Shown: positions 19,306-24,909 of the stretch, in pieces
Layout of the letters: every line of letters begins with the position of its first letter
How positions within the stretch are numbered: the stretch's first letter is position 1
Assembly (NCBI GenBank): GCA_012800855.1
Contig: JAAZIN010000119.1
Coordinates: forward strand, 1 to 33,926
Length of the DNA: 33,926 nt
Source: Bacillota bacterium
GTDB taxonomy: Bacteria; Bacillota; Dethiobacteria; DTU022
Direction of reading: 5' to 3'
The notes under the pieces: model-generated
What the model saw: only the letters and a program-made list of their open reading frames with translations
Databases searched by the model: none
What the model was told of the DNA's origin: nothing
Program-made: the position numbers and the translations under genes

Positions 19306-19584
19306 GTGGTGGATGAGAAGCCGAAAAACCGGGTAACGGTAACCATAATGGGGGAAGAATATACCATCAGGGGCAGCGGCTCGCCGGAATCGCTGGAAGA
19401 GGCGGCCCGCTACGTGGACCGGCTGATGCGCTCCCTGGCGGAGAAGAACAGGCAGCTGAGCGGATATAAAATTGCCGTGCTGGCGGCGCTCAACCTGGCT
19501 GACGAGCTGCTGAAAGCAAGACAAGAGCACCCCCGCTTCCATGATGAAGAGAGGGATAGGGAGGGAGAAGATGAACTGGTTTGA
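19306..19584 (+). CDS. zapA: cell division protein ZapA
   Basis: NRVTVTIMGEEYTIRGSGSPESLEEAARYVDRLMRSLAEKNRQLSGYKIAVLAALNLADELLK; typical ZapA, next to pheT. Confidence 0.88.
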   Translation: MVDEKPKNRVTVTIMGEEYTIRGSGSPESLEEAARYVDRLMRSLAEKNRQLSGYKIAVLAALNLADELLKARQEHPRFHDEERDREGEDELV

Positions 19585-20152
19585 TTACCTGCTCCTCGGC
19601 ATCGCCGCCTTCTATCTTATCGGGGGGCTGATCCAGGGGGCGCTGAAGCAGCTTTTCAATCTCTTTGGATTTTTTATTGCCCTGGCCCTGGCTTTCCTGG
19701 GGAGCCGGTACTTGAGCGGGTACGTGGCCGCCTACCTCAAGCCCGATTACTTTTTGCCCTATGAAGAAGTGCTGCAGCGCTTCGGGATGGCCCTCACGGT
19801 GGAAGACATGATGGGCCTTGCCGCCGCAGCCATAACCTTCCTGGCGATCTTGCTCGTCCTGCTCATTGTTTTCCGGCTGCTGCTCCACTGGCTTACCGCG
19901 GCCAACAAGATCCCCGTCATTGGTTTTTTTAACCGGTTGGGCGGGGCCCTTTTGGGCCTGCTCATCGGGCTGCTCATTGATTTCGCCATAATCAGCGCCG
20001 TGTCGCTGCTGCCGCTGTCCTTTTTAACGGAGGCCCTTAACGGCTCCGTGGTGGCAGGATACCTGGCCCAGCAGCTGCCGCTAGCATATGGCGAGGTTAA
20101 GGAAGTTCTGATCAATTTGCTGCTGGGCAGCCGTCCCGGCGAGGGAATCTGA
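19571..20152 (+). CDS. CvpA family membrane protein
   Basis: MNWFDYLLLGIAAFYLIGGLIQGALKQLFNLFGFFIALALAFLGSRYL, several TM helices; ATG 19571 overlaps the zapA end; usual zapA-cvpA-mutS2 neighbourhood. Confidence 0.88.
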   Translation: MNWFDYLLLGIAAFYLIGGLIQGALKQLFNLFGFFIALALAFLGSRYLSGYVAAYLKPDYFLPYEEVLQRFGMALTVEDMMGLAAAAITFLAILLVLLIVFRLLLHWLTAANKIPVIGFFNRLGGALLGLLIGLLIDFAIISAVSLLPLSFLTEALNGSVVAGYLAQQLPLAYGEVKEVLINLLLGSRPGEGI

Positions 20153-20162
20153 GAAAGGACGC

Positions 20163-21899
20163 TTGACGGCATTGGAGAATTGGGAAGTAGCCGCAGCCCT
20201 GGAGAGAATGGCCGGGCTGCTGGCGTTAAAGGGCGAAGACAGCTTTAAGATAAGAGCTTACAGCCAGGCGGCGCGGCAGATTGTCCGCCTCTCGGAGCCC
20301 CTGGCCCAGATAATCGCAGAGGATCGCCTTGAGCAAATCCCCGGCATCGGCAAGGCGCTCTCCTCGAAGATCAAGGAATTGGTCGCCACCGGGCAGAGTT
20401 CTTTTCTGGCCCGGCTGGAAAAGGAGGTCCCGCCGGAGCTGCTCACTCTCTTCTCCATTCCCGGCGTGGGCTTCAGGACGGCGGGGAAGCTGGTGCAGGA
20501 GCTGAAGCTGGAAAACCTGGCCCAGCTGGAGGAGGCGGCGCGGCAGGGCAAGGTGGCCGAACTGCCCGGGCTGGGGAAGGCGCTGCAGGACAAGGTGCTC
20601 CACTTCTTCGCTCACCGTGCCGCCGAGCCGGAGCGCTTCCACCGCGGCGTGGCCCTGCCCCTGGCCGAACAGCTGCACTCTTTTCTCCTGCAGCTGCCTT
20701 TTGTCCTGTGCTGCTCTCCCGCCGGTGAGGTGAGGCGCGGCACGGAGACGGTTGCGGAAGTGGTGGTCGTGGCCGCGCTGGATGAGCAGGCGCGGGAGCA
20801 CCTGGCGGAGCAGCTCCGCAAGCTGCCCGGGGTGGGCAGCCTGGAGCCCGCGCCCGGCGGCTTTAAGCTGGCCACCCTGGTGGGACTGCCCGCCCGTGTT
20901 GTGCTTTGTTCCGCGGAGGAATATCCCACTCGCCTGGCGGAGCTCACTGCTTCGGCGGCGCACTGGGAGCAGCTGCAGGCATACGCGGCCGGGAGGGGCT
21001 TCCAGCTGAGCGGCGACGCCCTGCTGAAGGAGGGCCGCCGGGTGCCTCTCAAGGAGGAGGGAGAGCTTTACCGGGCCCTGGGGCTGCCCTTTATCCCTCC
21101 CGAGTTGAGGGAAGGGAGCGCCGAGCTGGAAAGAGCCGCCGCCGGAAAGCTGCCCCGCCTCGTTGAGCTCTCCCAGATCCGGGGCGACCTCCACCTGCAC
21201 AGCAGCTGGAGCGACGGCAATGCCTCCCTGGAAGAGATGCACGCCGCCGCGGGGCGGATGGGCTACGAGTATATCGCCATCACGGATCATTCCCCTTCGC
21301 TGAAAATTGCTGGGGGGCTTTCCCTGGAGCAGCTGGCGCGGCAGGTGCAGCAGGTAAAAGAGCTGCGCCGGGCCGGCGGCTGCTACATCTTTACCGGCGT
21401 GGAGGTGGACATTCACGCCGACGGCAGCCTGGACCTGCCCGACGAAATCCTCGGCGAGCTCGACGTGGTCATTGCCTCGGTGCACAGCAATTTCCGGCAG
21501 GGGCGCGAGGAGATGACCGCCCGCATCTGCCGGGCCATGGAGCACCCCGCCGTGCAAATAATCGGCCATCCCACCGGCCGCCTCATCGGCAGCCGCGGCG
21601 GCTACGAGGTTGACGTGGAGCGGCTTATCGACAAGGCGGCGGATACGGGCACCATCCTGGAAATCAACGCTTCGCCGCTGCGGCTCGACCTCTCGGAAAA
21701 GTACCACCGCCTGGCCCGCCGCAAGGGGGTGCCCCTGCTGGTGAACACCGATGCCCACTCCACGGCTACGATGCAGGACATGGTTTACGGGGTCACGGCG
21801 GCGCGGCGCGGCTGGCTGGAGGCGGAAGACATTCTCAATACCCTCCCCCTGGAGCGGATACGGGAAGCCCTAAGCTGGAAGCGCCGCCTGAGAGGATGA
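20163..21899 (+). CDS. polX: PolX-like protein: HhH + degenerate pol X core + PHP domain
   Basis: N-terminal HhH (IPGIGKALSSKIKELVATG, LFSIPGVGFRTAGKL, LPGLGKALQDKV); pol X-like core with RRGTETVAEVVVV; intact PHP motifs GDLHLHSSWSDG, ITDHS, GVEVDI, ASVHS, GHPTGR, EINASPLRLDL, NTDAHS. Confidence 0.9.
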   Translation: MTALENWEVAAALERMAGLLALKGEDSFKIRAYSQAARQIVRLSEPLAQIIAEDRLEQIPGIGKALSSKIKELVATGQSSFLARLEKEVPPELLTLFSIPGVGFRTAGKLVQELKLENLAQLEEAARQGKVAELPGLGKALQDKVLHFFAHRAAEPERFHRGVALPLAEQLHSFLLQLPFVLCCSPAGEVRRGTETVAEVVVVAALDEQAREHLAEQLRKLPGVGSLEPAPGGFKLATLVGLPARVVLCSAEEYPTRLAELTASAAHWEQLQAYAAGRGFQLSGDALLKEGRRVPLKEEGELYRALGLPFIPPELREGSAELERAAAGKLPRLVELSQIRGDLHLHSSWSDGNASLEEMHAAAGRMGYEYIAITDHSPSLKIAGGLSLEQLARQVQQVKELRRAGGCYIFTGVEVDIHADGSLDLPDEILGELDVVIASVHSNFRQGREEMTARICRAMEHPAVQIIGHPTGRLIGSRGGYEVDVERLIDKAADTGTILEINASPLRLDLSEKYHRLARRKGVPLLVNTDAHSTATMQDMVYGVTAARRGWLEAEDILNTLPLERIREALSWKRRLRG

Positions 21900-21906
21900 A
21901 GCAACC

Positions 21907-22497
21907 TTGCAGCTGCAGCCCCTGGAGGCTTCATTTTACCGGGATCGCGATACGGTAAGCGTGGCCCGCGCCCTGCTGGGGCACATTCTCTGCCGTGAGA
22001 CCCCCGAGGGCCTGGCCGCGGGAATAATCGTGGAGACGGAGGCCTACCTGAGCAAGGACGACCCCGCCTGCCACGCCTCCCACGGAAAGACGAGGCGCAA
22101 TGCGGTCATGTTCGGCCCCCCCGGTCATGCCTACGTCTATTTCATCTACGGCGTCCATTACTGTTTCAACGTGGTCACCGGCCCGGAAGGCAGCGGCGAG
22201 GCTGTCCTGGTGCGGGCCCTGGAGCCGCTTTACGGGATTGACCTGATGGAGCGGCGCCGCGGACCGGGAAAGGGGGCGCGGCACCTGGCCGGCGGCCCGG
22301 GCCGGCTCTGCCAGGCGCTGGCCATCGACGGCTCCCTCAATGGACATGACCTGCGCCGCCCTCCTCTCTGGATTGCCGCCGGCACCCCGGTGAAGGCGGA
22401 AGAGGTGGCCGTATCGCCACGCATCGGGATCAACCGGGCCGCGGATAAGCTGCTTCGCTTCTACATAAAAGACAATCCCTGCGTTTCAAGGAGATAA
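21907..22497 (+). CDS. DNA-3-methyladenine glycosylase (AAG/MPG family)
   Basis: ARALLGHILCRE, IIVETEAYLSKDDPACHASHGKTRRNAVMFGPPGHAYVYFIYGVHYCFNVVTGPEG, HLAGGPGRLCQALAID, PRIGINRAADKLLRFYIKDNPCVSR. Confidence 0.96.
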   Translation: MQLQPLEASFYRDRDTVSVARALLGHILCRETPEGLAAGIIVETEAYLSKDDPACHASHGKTRRNAVMFGPPGHAYVYFIYGVHYCFNVVTGPEGSGEAVLVRALEPLYGIDLMERRRGPGKGARHLAGGPGRLCQALAIDGSLNGHDLRRPPLWIAAGTPVKAEEVAVSPRIGINRAADKLLRFYIKDNPCVSRR

Positions 22498-22506
22498 GCG
22501 GTTATC

Positions 22507-24909
22507 GTGAATGATGTCATCACCGAGCGGGAAATAAAATCCCTTGAATTCGATACCATCCGGCGGAGGCTGGCCGGGCTGGCAGCCACCCCCATGGGGC
22601 GGGAGGCGGCGGAATCGCTCCTGCCCACCGCGGACCGGGAGATGGTGGAGCGGCTCCTGCAGGAGACGGAGGAGGGAAGGCTGCTCTGCGCCAGGAGTTC
22701 CTTTTCCCCGGCGGCCGTCGACGATATTACCCCCCTGGTGGCGCGCTCCGAAAAAGGGGGGCTGCTCCAGGGGAAGGAGCTGGCGGCCATAGGCAGGCTC
22801 ATCAAGGGGGTGCAGCGCTGCCGGCGCTTTTTCAAGGAGAGCAAGAATGCCGAAAGCTACCCCCTCCTGGCAGGGCTGGCCGCCCGGCTGGAGGGATGCG
22901 AGGCCCTGGGACGCGAGCTGGATCAGTCCGTCGATGCCGAGGGGGAGATCCTCGACAGCGCCTCTCCCCACCTGGCCGCGCTGCGCCGCCGCGAGCGGCG
23001 CCTGCAGGAGGCCATCCGCGAGAAGCTGGATTCCTACCTGCGGGATCCCGCCCAGCGCCGCCTGCTGCAGGAGCCGCTCATTACCATCCGCGGCAACCGC
23101 TTTGTCCTGCCGGTTAAGCAGGAATACCGCCAGCAGGTCAGCGGCGTGGTGCATGACCAGTCGGCCAGCGGGGCCACCCTCTTTATCGAGCCGCTGCCGG
23201 TGGTGCAGCTGCAGAACGAGCTCTCCGGCCTGCGCCACGAGATTGCCCGGGAAATTGAGCGCATCCTGCGGCAGCTCAGCAGCCGGGTGGCGGAATCTGC
23301 CGCCGCCCTGCGCAGCGACTGCGCGCTCTACGGCCGGCTGGACTTCATTATGGCCCGCGGCCGCCTCAGCCTGGAACAGAATGCCGCCCCGCCGCAGCTG
23401 CTGCTCCAGGGCGGCCCGCAGCTTTACCTGGAGCAGGCGCGCCACCCCCTCCTGGGCGCGGCGGCGGTTCCGCTGACGGTGTCCATGGATGAACACTGTC
23501 GCGTCCTGGTCATCACCGGCCCCAACACCGGGGGGAAAACGGTGACGCTGAAAACAATCGGCCTGCTGGCGATAATGGCCCAGTGCGGCCTCCACATCCC
23601 CGCGGAGCGCGGCAGCATCCTCTCCGTCTTTGATACCATCCGCGCCGATATCGGCGATGAGCAGAGCATAGAGCAGTCGCTGAGCACCTTCTCGGGGCAC
23701 CTGAAAAACATCATCTCCATCCTGGAGCAGCACGGCCCCGCCTCGCTGGCCCTCCTGGACGAGCTGGGGGCGGGCACCGACCCCTCCGAGGGAGCCTCCC
23801 TGGCCATGGCCATTCTCTCCGCGCTGGCCCGCAAGGGCGGGCTGACCGTGGCCACGACACACATCAACGAGCTGAAGCTCTTTGCCCAAGTGCAGGAGGG
23901 GATGCAGAACGCGGCCATGGAGTTTGACGAGGAGACGCTGGCCCCCACCTACCGGCTGCTGCAGGGGGTGCCCGGGCGGAGCAACGCCCTTGTCATCGCG
24001 GAGAAGCTGGGGCTCCCCCCGGAGGTGCTGGCCGAGGCGCGGGGCTACTTGACGCAGGGCCACGAGGACATTGAATCGGTCATTGCCAGCCTGGTGGGAG
24101 AGCGGCAGCGGCTGGCCCGGGAGAGCGACGAGGCCTCCGCGGAGCGGGCGCGGGCGGCGTCGCTGCGGCGCGAGCTGGAGGCGGAACGCGAGCAGCTGCG
24201 CGCGAAGCGGCAGAAGATCATCGAGGAGGCGCGCGCCGAGGCTCGCGCCCTGGTGCGGCGGGCCAGGCTGACGACGGAGGGGCTCATCCGCGAACTGCGC
24301 CGGCTGCATGCCGCCGGGGGTGGTCGCGAGGCGCTGGAGCGGACCGAGGAAGCCCGCCGCGAGCTGCAGCAGCTGCAGGGCGAGATCGAATCCGGGCTTG
24401 AAGTGGAGGAAGCTCCCGCCCTGCCCGCTGCCGAACTGGCCGTGGGGAAGACGGTATACGTGCAGAGCCTGCGGCAGAAGGGGGAGATCCTCGCCTTGTC
24501 CGGGGATGAGGCGCTGGTGCAGGTGGGCACGATGCGTGTGCACCTGCCGCAAAGCGAGCTCCGCCGCTGGGAGGGGCCCCCGGCCGAAAAGGAGCCGCCG
24601 GTGCGCATTTCCTACACCGTGAAGAAGGAGCTTGACATCCGGCCGGAGATCAACTTGCACGGCAAAACTGTGGAAGAGGCCATCCCTCTGGTGGATAAGT
24701 TTCTCGATGATGCCCTGTGGGCCGGGCTGGAGCAGGTCACGGTGATCCACGGCAAGGGGACAGGCAGGCTGAAGGAGGGGCTTCGCGCCTACCTGCGCGA
24801 TCACCCCCTGGTAAAATCGATGCGCAGCGGCGGGGTCGCGGAAGGCGGCAGCGGCGTTACCATCGTGACCCTTGTCGGCGGCCCCGGAACGGGAAGGCAG
24901 ATGAGCTAG
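22507..24909 (+). CDS. mutS2: MutS2 (MutS family ATPase with C-terminal Smr domain)
   Basis: Walker A GPNTGGKTVTLKTIG, Walker B LALLDELGAGTDPSEG; coiled-coil insert; Smr INLHGKTVEEA...VIHGKGTGRLKEGLRAYLRDHPLVKSMRSGG. Confidence 0.96.
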   Translation: MNDVITEREIKSLEFDTIRRRLAGLAATPMGREAAESLLPTADREMVERLLQETEEGRLLCARSSFSPAAVDDITPLVARSEKGGLLQGKELAAIGRLIKGVQRCRRFFKESKNAESYPLLAGLAARLEGCEALGRELDQSVDAEGEILDSASPHLAALRRRERRLQEAIREKLDSYLRDPAQRRLLQEPLITIRGNRFVLPVKQEYRQQVSGVVHDQSASGATLFIEPLPVVQLQNELSGLRHEIAREIERILRQLSSRVAESAAALRSDCALYGRLDFIMARGRLSLEQNAAPPQLLLQGGPQLYLEQARHPLLGAAAVPLTVSMDEHCRVLVITGPNTGGKTVTLKTIGLLAIMAQCGLHIPAERGSILSVFDTIRADIGDEQSIEQSLSTFSGHLKNIISILEQHGPASLALLDELGAGTDPSEGASLAMAILSALARKGGLTVATTHINELKLFAQVQEGMQNAAMEFDEETLAPTYRLLQGVPGRSNALVIAEKLGLPPEVLAEARGYLTQGHEDIESVIASLVGERQRLARESDEASAERARAASLRRELEAEREQLRAKRQKIIEEARAEARALVRRARLTTEGLIRELRRLHAAGGGREALERTEEARRELQQLQGEIESGLEVEEAPALPAAELAVGKTVYVQSLRQKGEILALSGDEALVQVGTMRVHLPQSELRRWEGPPAEKEPPVRISYTVKKELDIRPEINLHGKTVEEAIPLVDKFLDDALWAGLEQVTVIHGKGTGRLKEGLRAYLRDHPLVKSMRSGGVAEGGSGVTIVTLVGGPGTGRQMS

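Follow-up and report, generated by a model that had tools for sequence, protein, structure and literature searches.

Bacillus subtilis PolX is an active polymerase (PMC9226535), and an intrinsic AP endonuclease activity is also attributed to it (cited in PMC9226535 and PMC12926913). A single substitution in its catalytic triad, D203A, abolishes the polymerase activity and leaves the exonuclease in place (PMC9226535). Proteins whose triad is altered by nature, termed noncanonical PolX, are an established class that makes up 27.5% of a non-redundant set and has several independent origins, including groups of Firmicutes; the class is defined by the triad, and deletions in the palm and fingers are frequent in it but not required (PMC9226535). 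Exonuclease without polymerase activity has been shown for Deinococcus members with altered triads, and an earlier finding of template-dependent activity in D. radiodurans PolX did not prove reproducible (PMC9226535). The same study found that 11 of 12 Firmicutes genomes with an altered PolX have non-homologous end joining (NHEJ) without the nuclease, and it proposed that PolX stands in for the absent LigD nuclease; it also described the Zap and MutS2 operon neighbours in Clostridia and the pairing of canonical and noncanonical copies in one genome (PMC9226535). In a 2026 survey, the polymerase site is retained in 75% of PolX1 proteins and the PHP site in 95% (PMC12926913).

The PolX described here is encoded in a contig of 33,926 nucleotides (hereafter the window; contig C141 of genome G000) from a Bacillota genome of 1.97 Mb that is 95% complete. 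By its sequence it fits the published noncanonical class, and we hold it highly probable that the gene encodes a member of the X family with a dead polymerase site and a retained PHP nuclease.

The polX gene and its neighbours

The gene order at the locus is pheT-zapA-cvpA-polX-mpg-mutS2, and the genes considered here are as follows.

19306..19584, + strand: conserved upstream neighbour, presumably zapA (named from the known Bacillus operon)
19541..20152, + strand: upstream neighbour by locus comparison, a membrane protein gene that we take to be cvpA-like (from the same Bacillus operon)
20163..21899, + strand: polX, encoding a noncanonical (polymerase-site-altered) PolX; open reading frame of 578 aa with a TTG start, or 575 aa with TTG 20172 as the start
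21907..22497, + strand: mpg, 3-methyladenine/methylpurine DNA glycosylase (locus comparison, PF02245)
22507..24909, + strand: downstream neighbour by locus comparison, presumably mutS2 (again from the known Bacillus operon)

The second in-frame TTG, at 20172, is likely a better start than that at 20163; its spacing from the AGGA at 20156-20159 is more favourable, and alignments to close relatives begin there. The predicted protein matches the full-length NCBIfam profile PRK08609 ("DNA polymerase/3'-5' exonuclease PolX") across residues 8-570 with 463 bits, above the curated cut-off of 426, and this match and the order of its domains identify it as a member of the prokaryotic PolX family. Automated annotation would therefore name the gene a DNA polymerase, as an earlier note on this sequence had foreseen, a label that is very probably wrong in this lineage. 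Pfam recognizes HHH_8, HHH_5, DNA_pol_B_thumb and PHP domains in the protein and reports no match to its divergent palm. The palm and fingers are not truncated; they align as 82 and 71 residues, against 81 and 71 in Thermus PolX. The domains and the altered positions within them, all on the + strand, are these.

20163..20402, + strand: 8 kDa HhH domain (HHH_8; Pfam, alignment), in which we take Lys69 to be the equivalent of Pol beta K72
20403..20612, + strand: second HhH region (HHH_5; Pfam), the thumb domain as named by Prostova et al. 2022 (PMC9226535)
20613..20903, + strand: palm; the model preserves a nucleotidyltransferase fold, and the catalytic site is altered (alignment, AlphaFold, Foldseek)
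20727..20729, + strand: E189, where the GS motif has Ser (GSARR changed to GEVRR; alignment)
20757..20759, + strand: E199, at catalytic Asp 1 (Thermus D198; alignment)
20763..20765, + strand: V201, at catalytic Asp 2 (Thermus D200; alignment), in model strand 200-206
20895..20897, + strand: R245, at catalytic Asp 3 (Thermus D243; alignment), in model strand 244-249
20904..21116, + strand: fingers (Pfam DNA_pol_B_thumb, alignment)
about 20937-20966, + strand: dNTP-site motif AELTASAAHW, with Trp at the position of the conserved Asn (alignment)
21174..21872, + strand: PHP domain with its nine metal ligands, HHHEHHEDH, intact (Pfam, alignment)

The polymerase site and the PHP site

Residues were mapped with phmmer to Thermus PolX (3b0x/3au2) and Deinococcus PolX (2w9m) and with MAFFT in an alignment with about 60 canonical PolXs. 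The two methods agree that E199, V201 and R245 of the window protein lie on D198, D200 and D243 of Thermus PolX. The earlier note had claimed that all three catalytic aspartates are missing, and this proved correct, the triad being E-V-R, although not in every detail that it gave. In its reading of GDID as AEVV, the second Asp is indeed Val, but the first position is Glu, a conservative change that is still acidic; the third Asp, which it had taken to be Ala, is in fact replaced by the Arg of LPARVV. Alignment to the Thermus and Deinococcus proteins, which that note had suggested as a check, thus places only this Glu, and not three acidic residues, at the catalytic positions, two of the three being non-acidic. 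The note was also right that the GS motif has been lost, GSARR having become GEVRR. The dNTP site is altered as well, from YLTGSKAHS to ELTASAAHW, with the steric gate changed, Lys replaced by Ala and the Asn position occupied by Trp, so that neither of the canonical motifs GSxRR and (Y/H)FTGSKxHN is present. The HhH region and the PHP metal-binding motifs are intact, as had been stated, and all nine PHP ligands are present. The E-V-R triad, the replaced dNTP residues and the complete PHP site together support the proposal of the same note that this PolX is probably no longer a polymerase and probably remains a PHP nuclease.

The AlphaFold model of the protein is confident throughout (pLDDT 92.6, pTM 0.89). 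In Foldseek its nearest structure is Thermus PolX on primer/template DNA (3au6, TM 0.82), and its matches to Thermus PolX have E values of 1e-52 to 1e-50. A confident model that resembles 3au6 to this degree indicates that the palm persists as a fold.

The noncanonical clade, its history and its constraint

A survey of related homologues found the altered triad in an open frame in the window, in 13 further genomes of the order and in 15 genomes of other families of the class, as the earlier note had thought worth looking for. These 29 homologues, all from uncultured Bacillota, form one clade, and nearly all are shown in a pheT-zapA-polX-mpg-mutS2 operon; the altered polX occupies the same locus in every relative whose flanks could be seen. 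We therefore reject chance and a sequencing or assembly error as the cause of the altered triad, a state common to 29 genomes. In the wider class, families f6 (13 genomes) and f7 (2 genomes) also have altered triads, with the operon neighbours present wherever the contig extends.

All 29 members carry changes at S188 and within the triad, and none has the conserved Asn, whereas the canonical PolXs have S188, D198 and D200 in 60 of 60, D243 in 59 of 60 (with one Glu) and the Asn in 53 of 60. The two arginines of GxRR are invariant in the clade (29/29), Glu is the commonest residue at catalytic position 1 (12/29), and the PHP ligands are complete (9/9) in every member inspected. In the 14 genomes of the order the triads include EVR (twice), EAR, EIQ, RIR, AES, EPR, HLR, ALH, EVK, EGT and KEC, a scatter that would be expected of a site free to drift.

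Thirty genomes of the order have a canonical DDD PolX as their only PolX, at a quite different locus, the triad having been read directly where the locus sequence was seen and assigned from the 37-42% identity class in the rest. In genomes without the noncanonical polX, pheT-zapA-cvpA and usually mpg-mutS2 are retained and polX alone is missing. One genome, G002, has both proteins: its noncanonical PolX (L055) occupies the ancestral locus, and its canonical DDD PolX (L081/L121) lies elsewhere. G002 is also the sole clade member with intact flanks but no mpg between polX and mutS2.

In trees built without the polymerase columns, the noncanonical Bacillota copies are united with SH-aLRT values of 100 for those of the order and 94 for those of the class. 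This clade stands next to canonical Clostridia and apart from the noncanonical proteins of Saprospiraceae, Deinococcus and Methanomicrobiales, with moderate support at the deeper nodes. Transfer from the noncanonical cluster of Deinococcus and Bacteroidota is not supported by this grouping with canonical Clostridia, of which the deeper support is moderate and in which the Deinococcus branch is long. The loss of the polymerase site in this lineage is apparently old and separate from the Deinococcus/Bacteroidota and Methanomicrobia cases, and the simplest reading of the trees and loci would be that polymerase function was lost once, long ago, in a gene that stayed in its ancestral operon, and that the dead site then drifted and the gene itself disappeared several times. 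Two Methanomicrobiales proteins (L048 and L049) are archaeal noncanonical PolXs with the triads EDR and EEK and a palm just 52 residues long, in agreement with the Methanomicrobia group of PMC9226535.

Between family members, noncanonical proteins are about as similar to one another as canonical ones are over the 8 kDa domain (68.5% identity, canonical 68.0%) and the PHP domain (69.5%, canonical 68.9%). They are less alike than the canonical ones in the thumb (62%, against 72%), the palm (43%, against 62%) and the fingers (50%, against 71%). Judged by these identities, the relaxation of constraint is mainly in the palm and fingers, and the polymerase parts are under a weaker and different constraint. 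The dN/dS ratio (omega) of the noncanonical polX is below 0.45 in every domain, which indicates that the gene is kept by selection.

In f6 (L209-L221; e.g., L217:4868-6394, - strand), the protein has an altered triad and has also lost about 62 internal residues, and with them the second HhH region, or thumb; Pfam HHH_5 is absent. The 8 kDa domain, palm, fingers and PHP domain (9/9 ligands) are kept, and the remainder folds well in the AlphaFold model (pLDDT 93.7). Since canonical and noncanonical PolX alike are said to have a well-conserved thumb (PMC9226535), the thumb-less form may be an undescribed architecture.

Possible roles and comparison with known systems

By analogy with its published relatives, the window PolX would not add nucleotides. 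It would cut DNA 3' ends as a Mn-dependent 3'-5' exonuclease, and it may also act as an AP endonuclease and 3'-phosphatase, with the HhH domains, palm and fingers holding gapped or broken DNA. Its main job might be the cleaning of 3' ends for Ku-LigD end joining, and such trimming seems to us the most likely role, if a weakly inferred one. Ku, a LigD ligase (318 aa) and a LigD polymerase (294 aa) are encoded by three adjacent genes elsewhere in the genome (G000:C71; L120:3905-6619), and a profile search of the genome found no LigD-type phosphoesterase (TIGR02777). G000 thus encodes Ku and LigD without the nuclease domain; the separate LigD polymerase protein would supply the synthesis.

The distribution of these genes in the order may point the same way. 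Ku is encoded by 14 of the 14 genomes with a noncanonical polX versus 6 of the 30 with only a canonical PolX (Fisher 3e-7 on raw counts, a significance that disappears when ancestry is taken into account). In the order, 33 genomes encode Ku; of these, the phosphoesterase is present in none of the 20 with any PolX versus 9 of the 13 without (Fisher 1.9e-5). For both patterns, ancestry-aware contrasts leave only about 3 independent comparisons, with a sign test p of 0.25 at best; with so few independent events, they are a lead and not proof, and the links of noncanonical PolX to Ku and of PolX of any type to the absence of the phosphoesterase are suggestive only. Most phosphoesterase matches are short stand-alone proteins away from Ku (stand-alone genes of 150-210 aa), and five genomes without Ku also encode one. 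The noncanonical polX itself adjoins mpg and not the Ku-LigD genes. A more far-reaching reading, which we hold less likely than not, is that in this Bacillota class PolX changed once, long ago, from a polymerase to a nuclease devoted to trimming ends for the Ku-LigD pathway, that it was kept only together with Ku and there replaces the LigD phosphoesterase, and that the shedding of the thumb in one family marks a further stage on the way from polymerase to plain nuclease scaffold.

Four other explanations were considered. First, PolX could serve base excision repair, with Mpg making AP sites, the PHP domain of PolX cutting them and cleaning the 3' end, and another polymerase filling the gap. 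Such a role would suit the position of mpg in the window, 8 bp beyond polX on the downstream side, the polX-mpg-mutS2 order kept in nearly all clade members and the intrinsic AP endonuclease of B. subtilis PolX (PMC9226535, PMC12926913). However, mpg remains in the operon of most genomes that have lost polX, and G002 has polX at the locus without mpg, such that the two genes are not co-retained; G000, moreover, already has Nfo and Xth, enzymes able to process AP sites and 3' ends. We regard this explanation as rather unlikely. PolX as the sole AP endonuclease of the cell is rejected, given Nfo and Xth in G000. Exonuclease III (Xth) is above its cut-off, beside Nfo, in G000 (Xth and Nfo on contigs C41 and C167), G001 and G011; it is rare among the 71 genomes of the order, 4 of which have it.

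Second, a residual or altered nucleotidyl transfer, with E199 and other residues binding metal and adding nucleotides, is very improbable. It would draw on the acidic E199, at the position where Glu is commonest, on the invariant GxRR arginines and retained palm fold, and on the activity once reported for D. radiodurans PolX, but Val and Arg stand at the remaining metal positions, the clade shows free variation in its triads (GET and CER, among others, beside those named above), and the D. radiodurans result was not reproducible (PMC9226535). Third, a functionless polX decaying toward loss would explain the fast-evolving palm and the fact that many genomes of the order have cleanly lost the gene from the operon; but the frame is open in 29 genomes, which span at least four families, the PHP ligands are complete throughout and omega is well below 1 in all domains, and this makes it scarcely credible. 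Finally, a mis-registered alignment of an ordinary polymerase with true catalytic acids nearby, for which the divergent palm without a Pfam match would speak, is hardly worth entertaining, as the GxRR and ETV anchors flank the first two positions, a GLP/GLQ turn anchors the third, phmmer, MAFFT and the model strands concur, and dNTP-site substitutions accompany the triad change.

The clade offers a natural test of the purpose of PolX in bacteria, as there are entire families in which the nuclease is retained and the polymerase is not. The mutual exclusion of PolX and the phosphoesterase among Ku genomes makes the published idea of PolX as the NHEJ nuclease directly testable, and the proteins available for such tests are small and well folded.

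Compared with known systems, the window PolX resembles the published noncanonical proteins in its altered triad and dNTP site (GS lost, Lys replaced, Asn changed to a hydrophobic residue), its intact PHP domain, its co-occurrence with NHEJ lacking the LigD nuclease and its ZapA and MutS2 neighbours, as in Clostridia (PMC9226535). Unlike the main Bacteroidota/Deinococcus cluster, it belongs to a separate Bacillota clade, which may be among the small Firmicutes groups of PMC9226535, and has the triad E-V-R and a full-length palm and fingers, without the deletions frequent in the class. With D. radiodurans PolX (2w9m, triad AEE; 33% identity in the Foldseek alignment) it shares the loss of the polymerase site and the retention of PHP, but that protein has a 7-residue palm deletion and another triad and groups elsewhere, on a long branch. 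The B. subtilis PolX (YshC) type has the same domain order and the same operon slot between zapA/cvpA and mutS2, as seen in Bacillus suaedae (L017), where pheT, zapA, polX and mutS2 stand in the same order; the Bacillus homologues L016 and L017, however, have the canonical DDD triad and an intact dNTP site. Like the actinobacterial PolX-like proteins (PMC12926913), the window protein appears to have kept PHP and not the polymerase function, but those proteins are without the polymerase region, whereas the window PolX keeps a folded palm and fingers.
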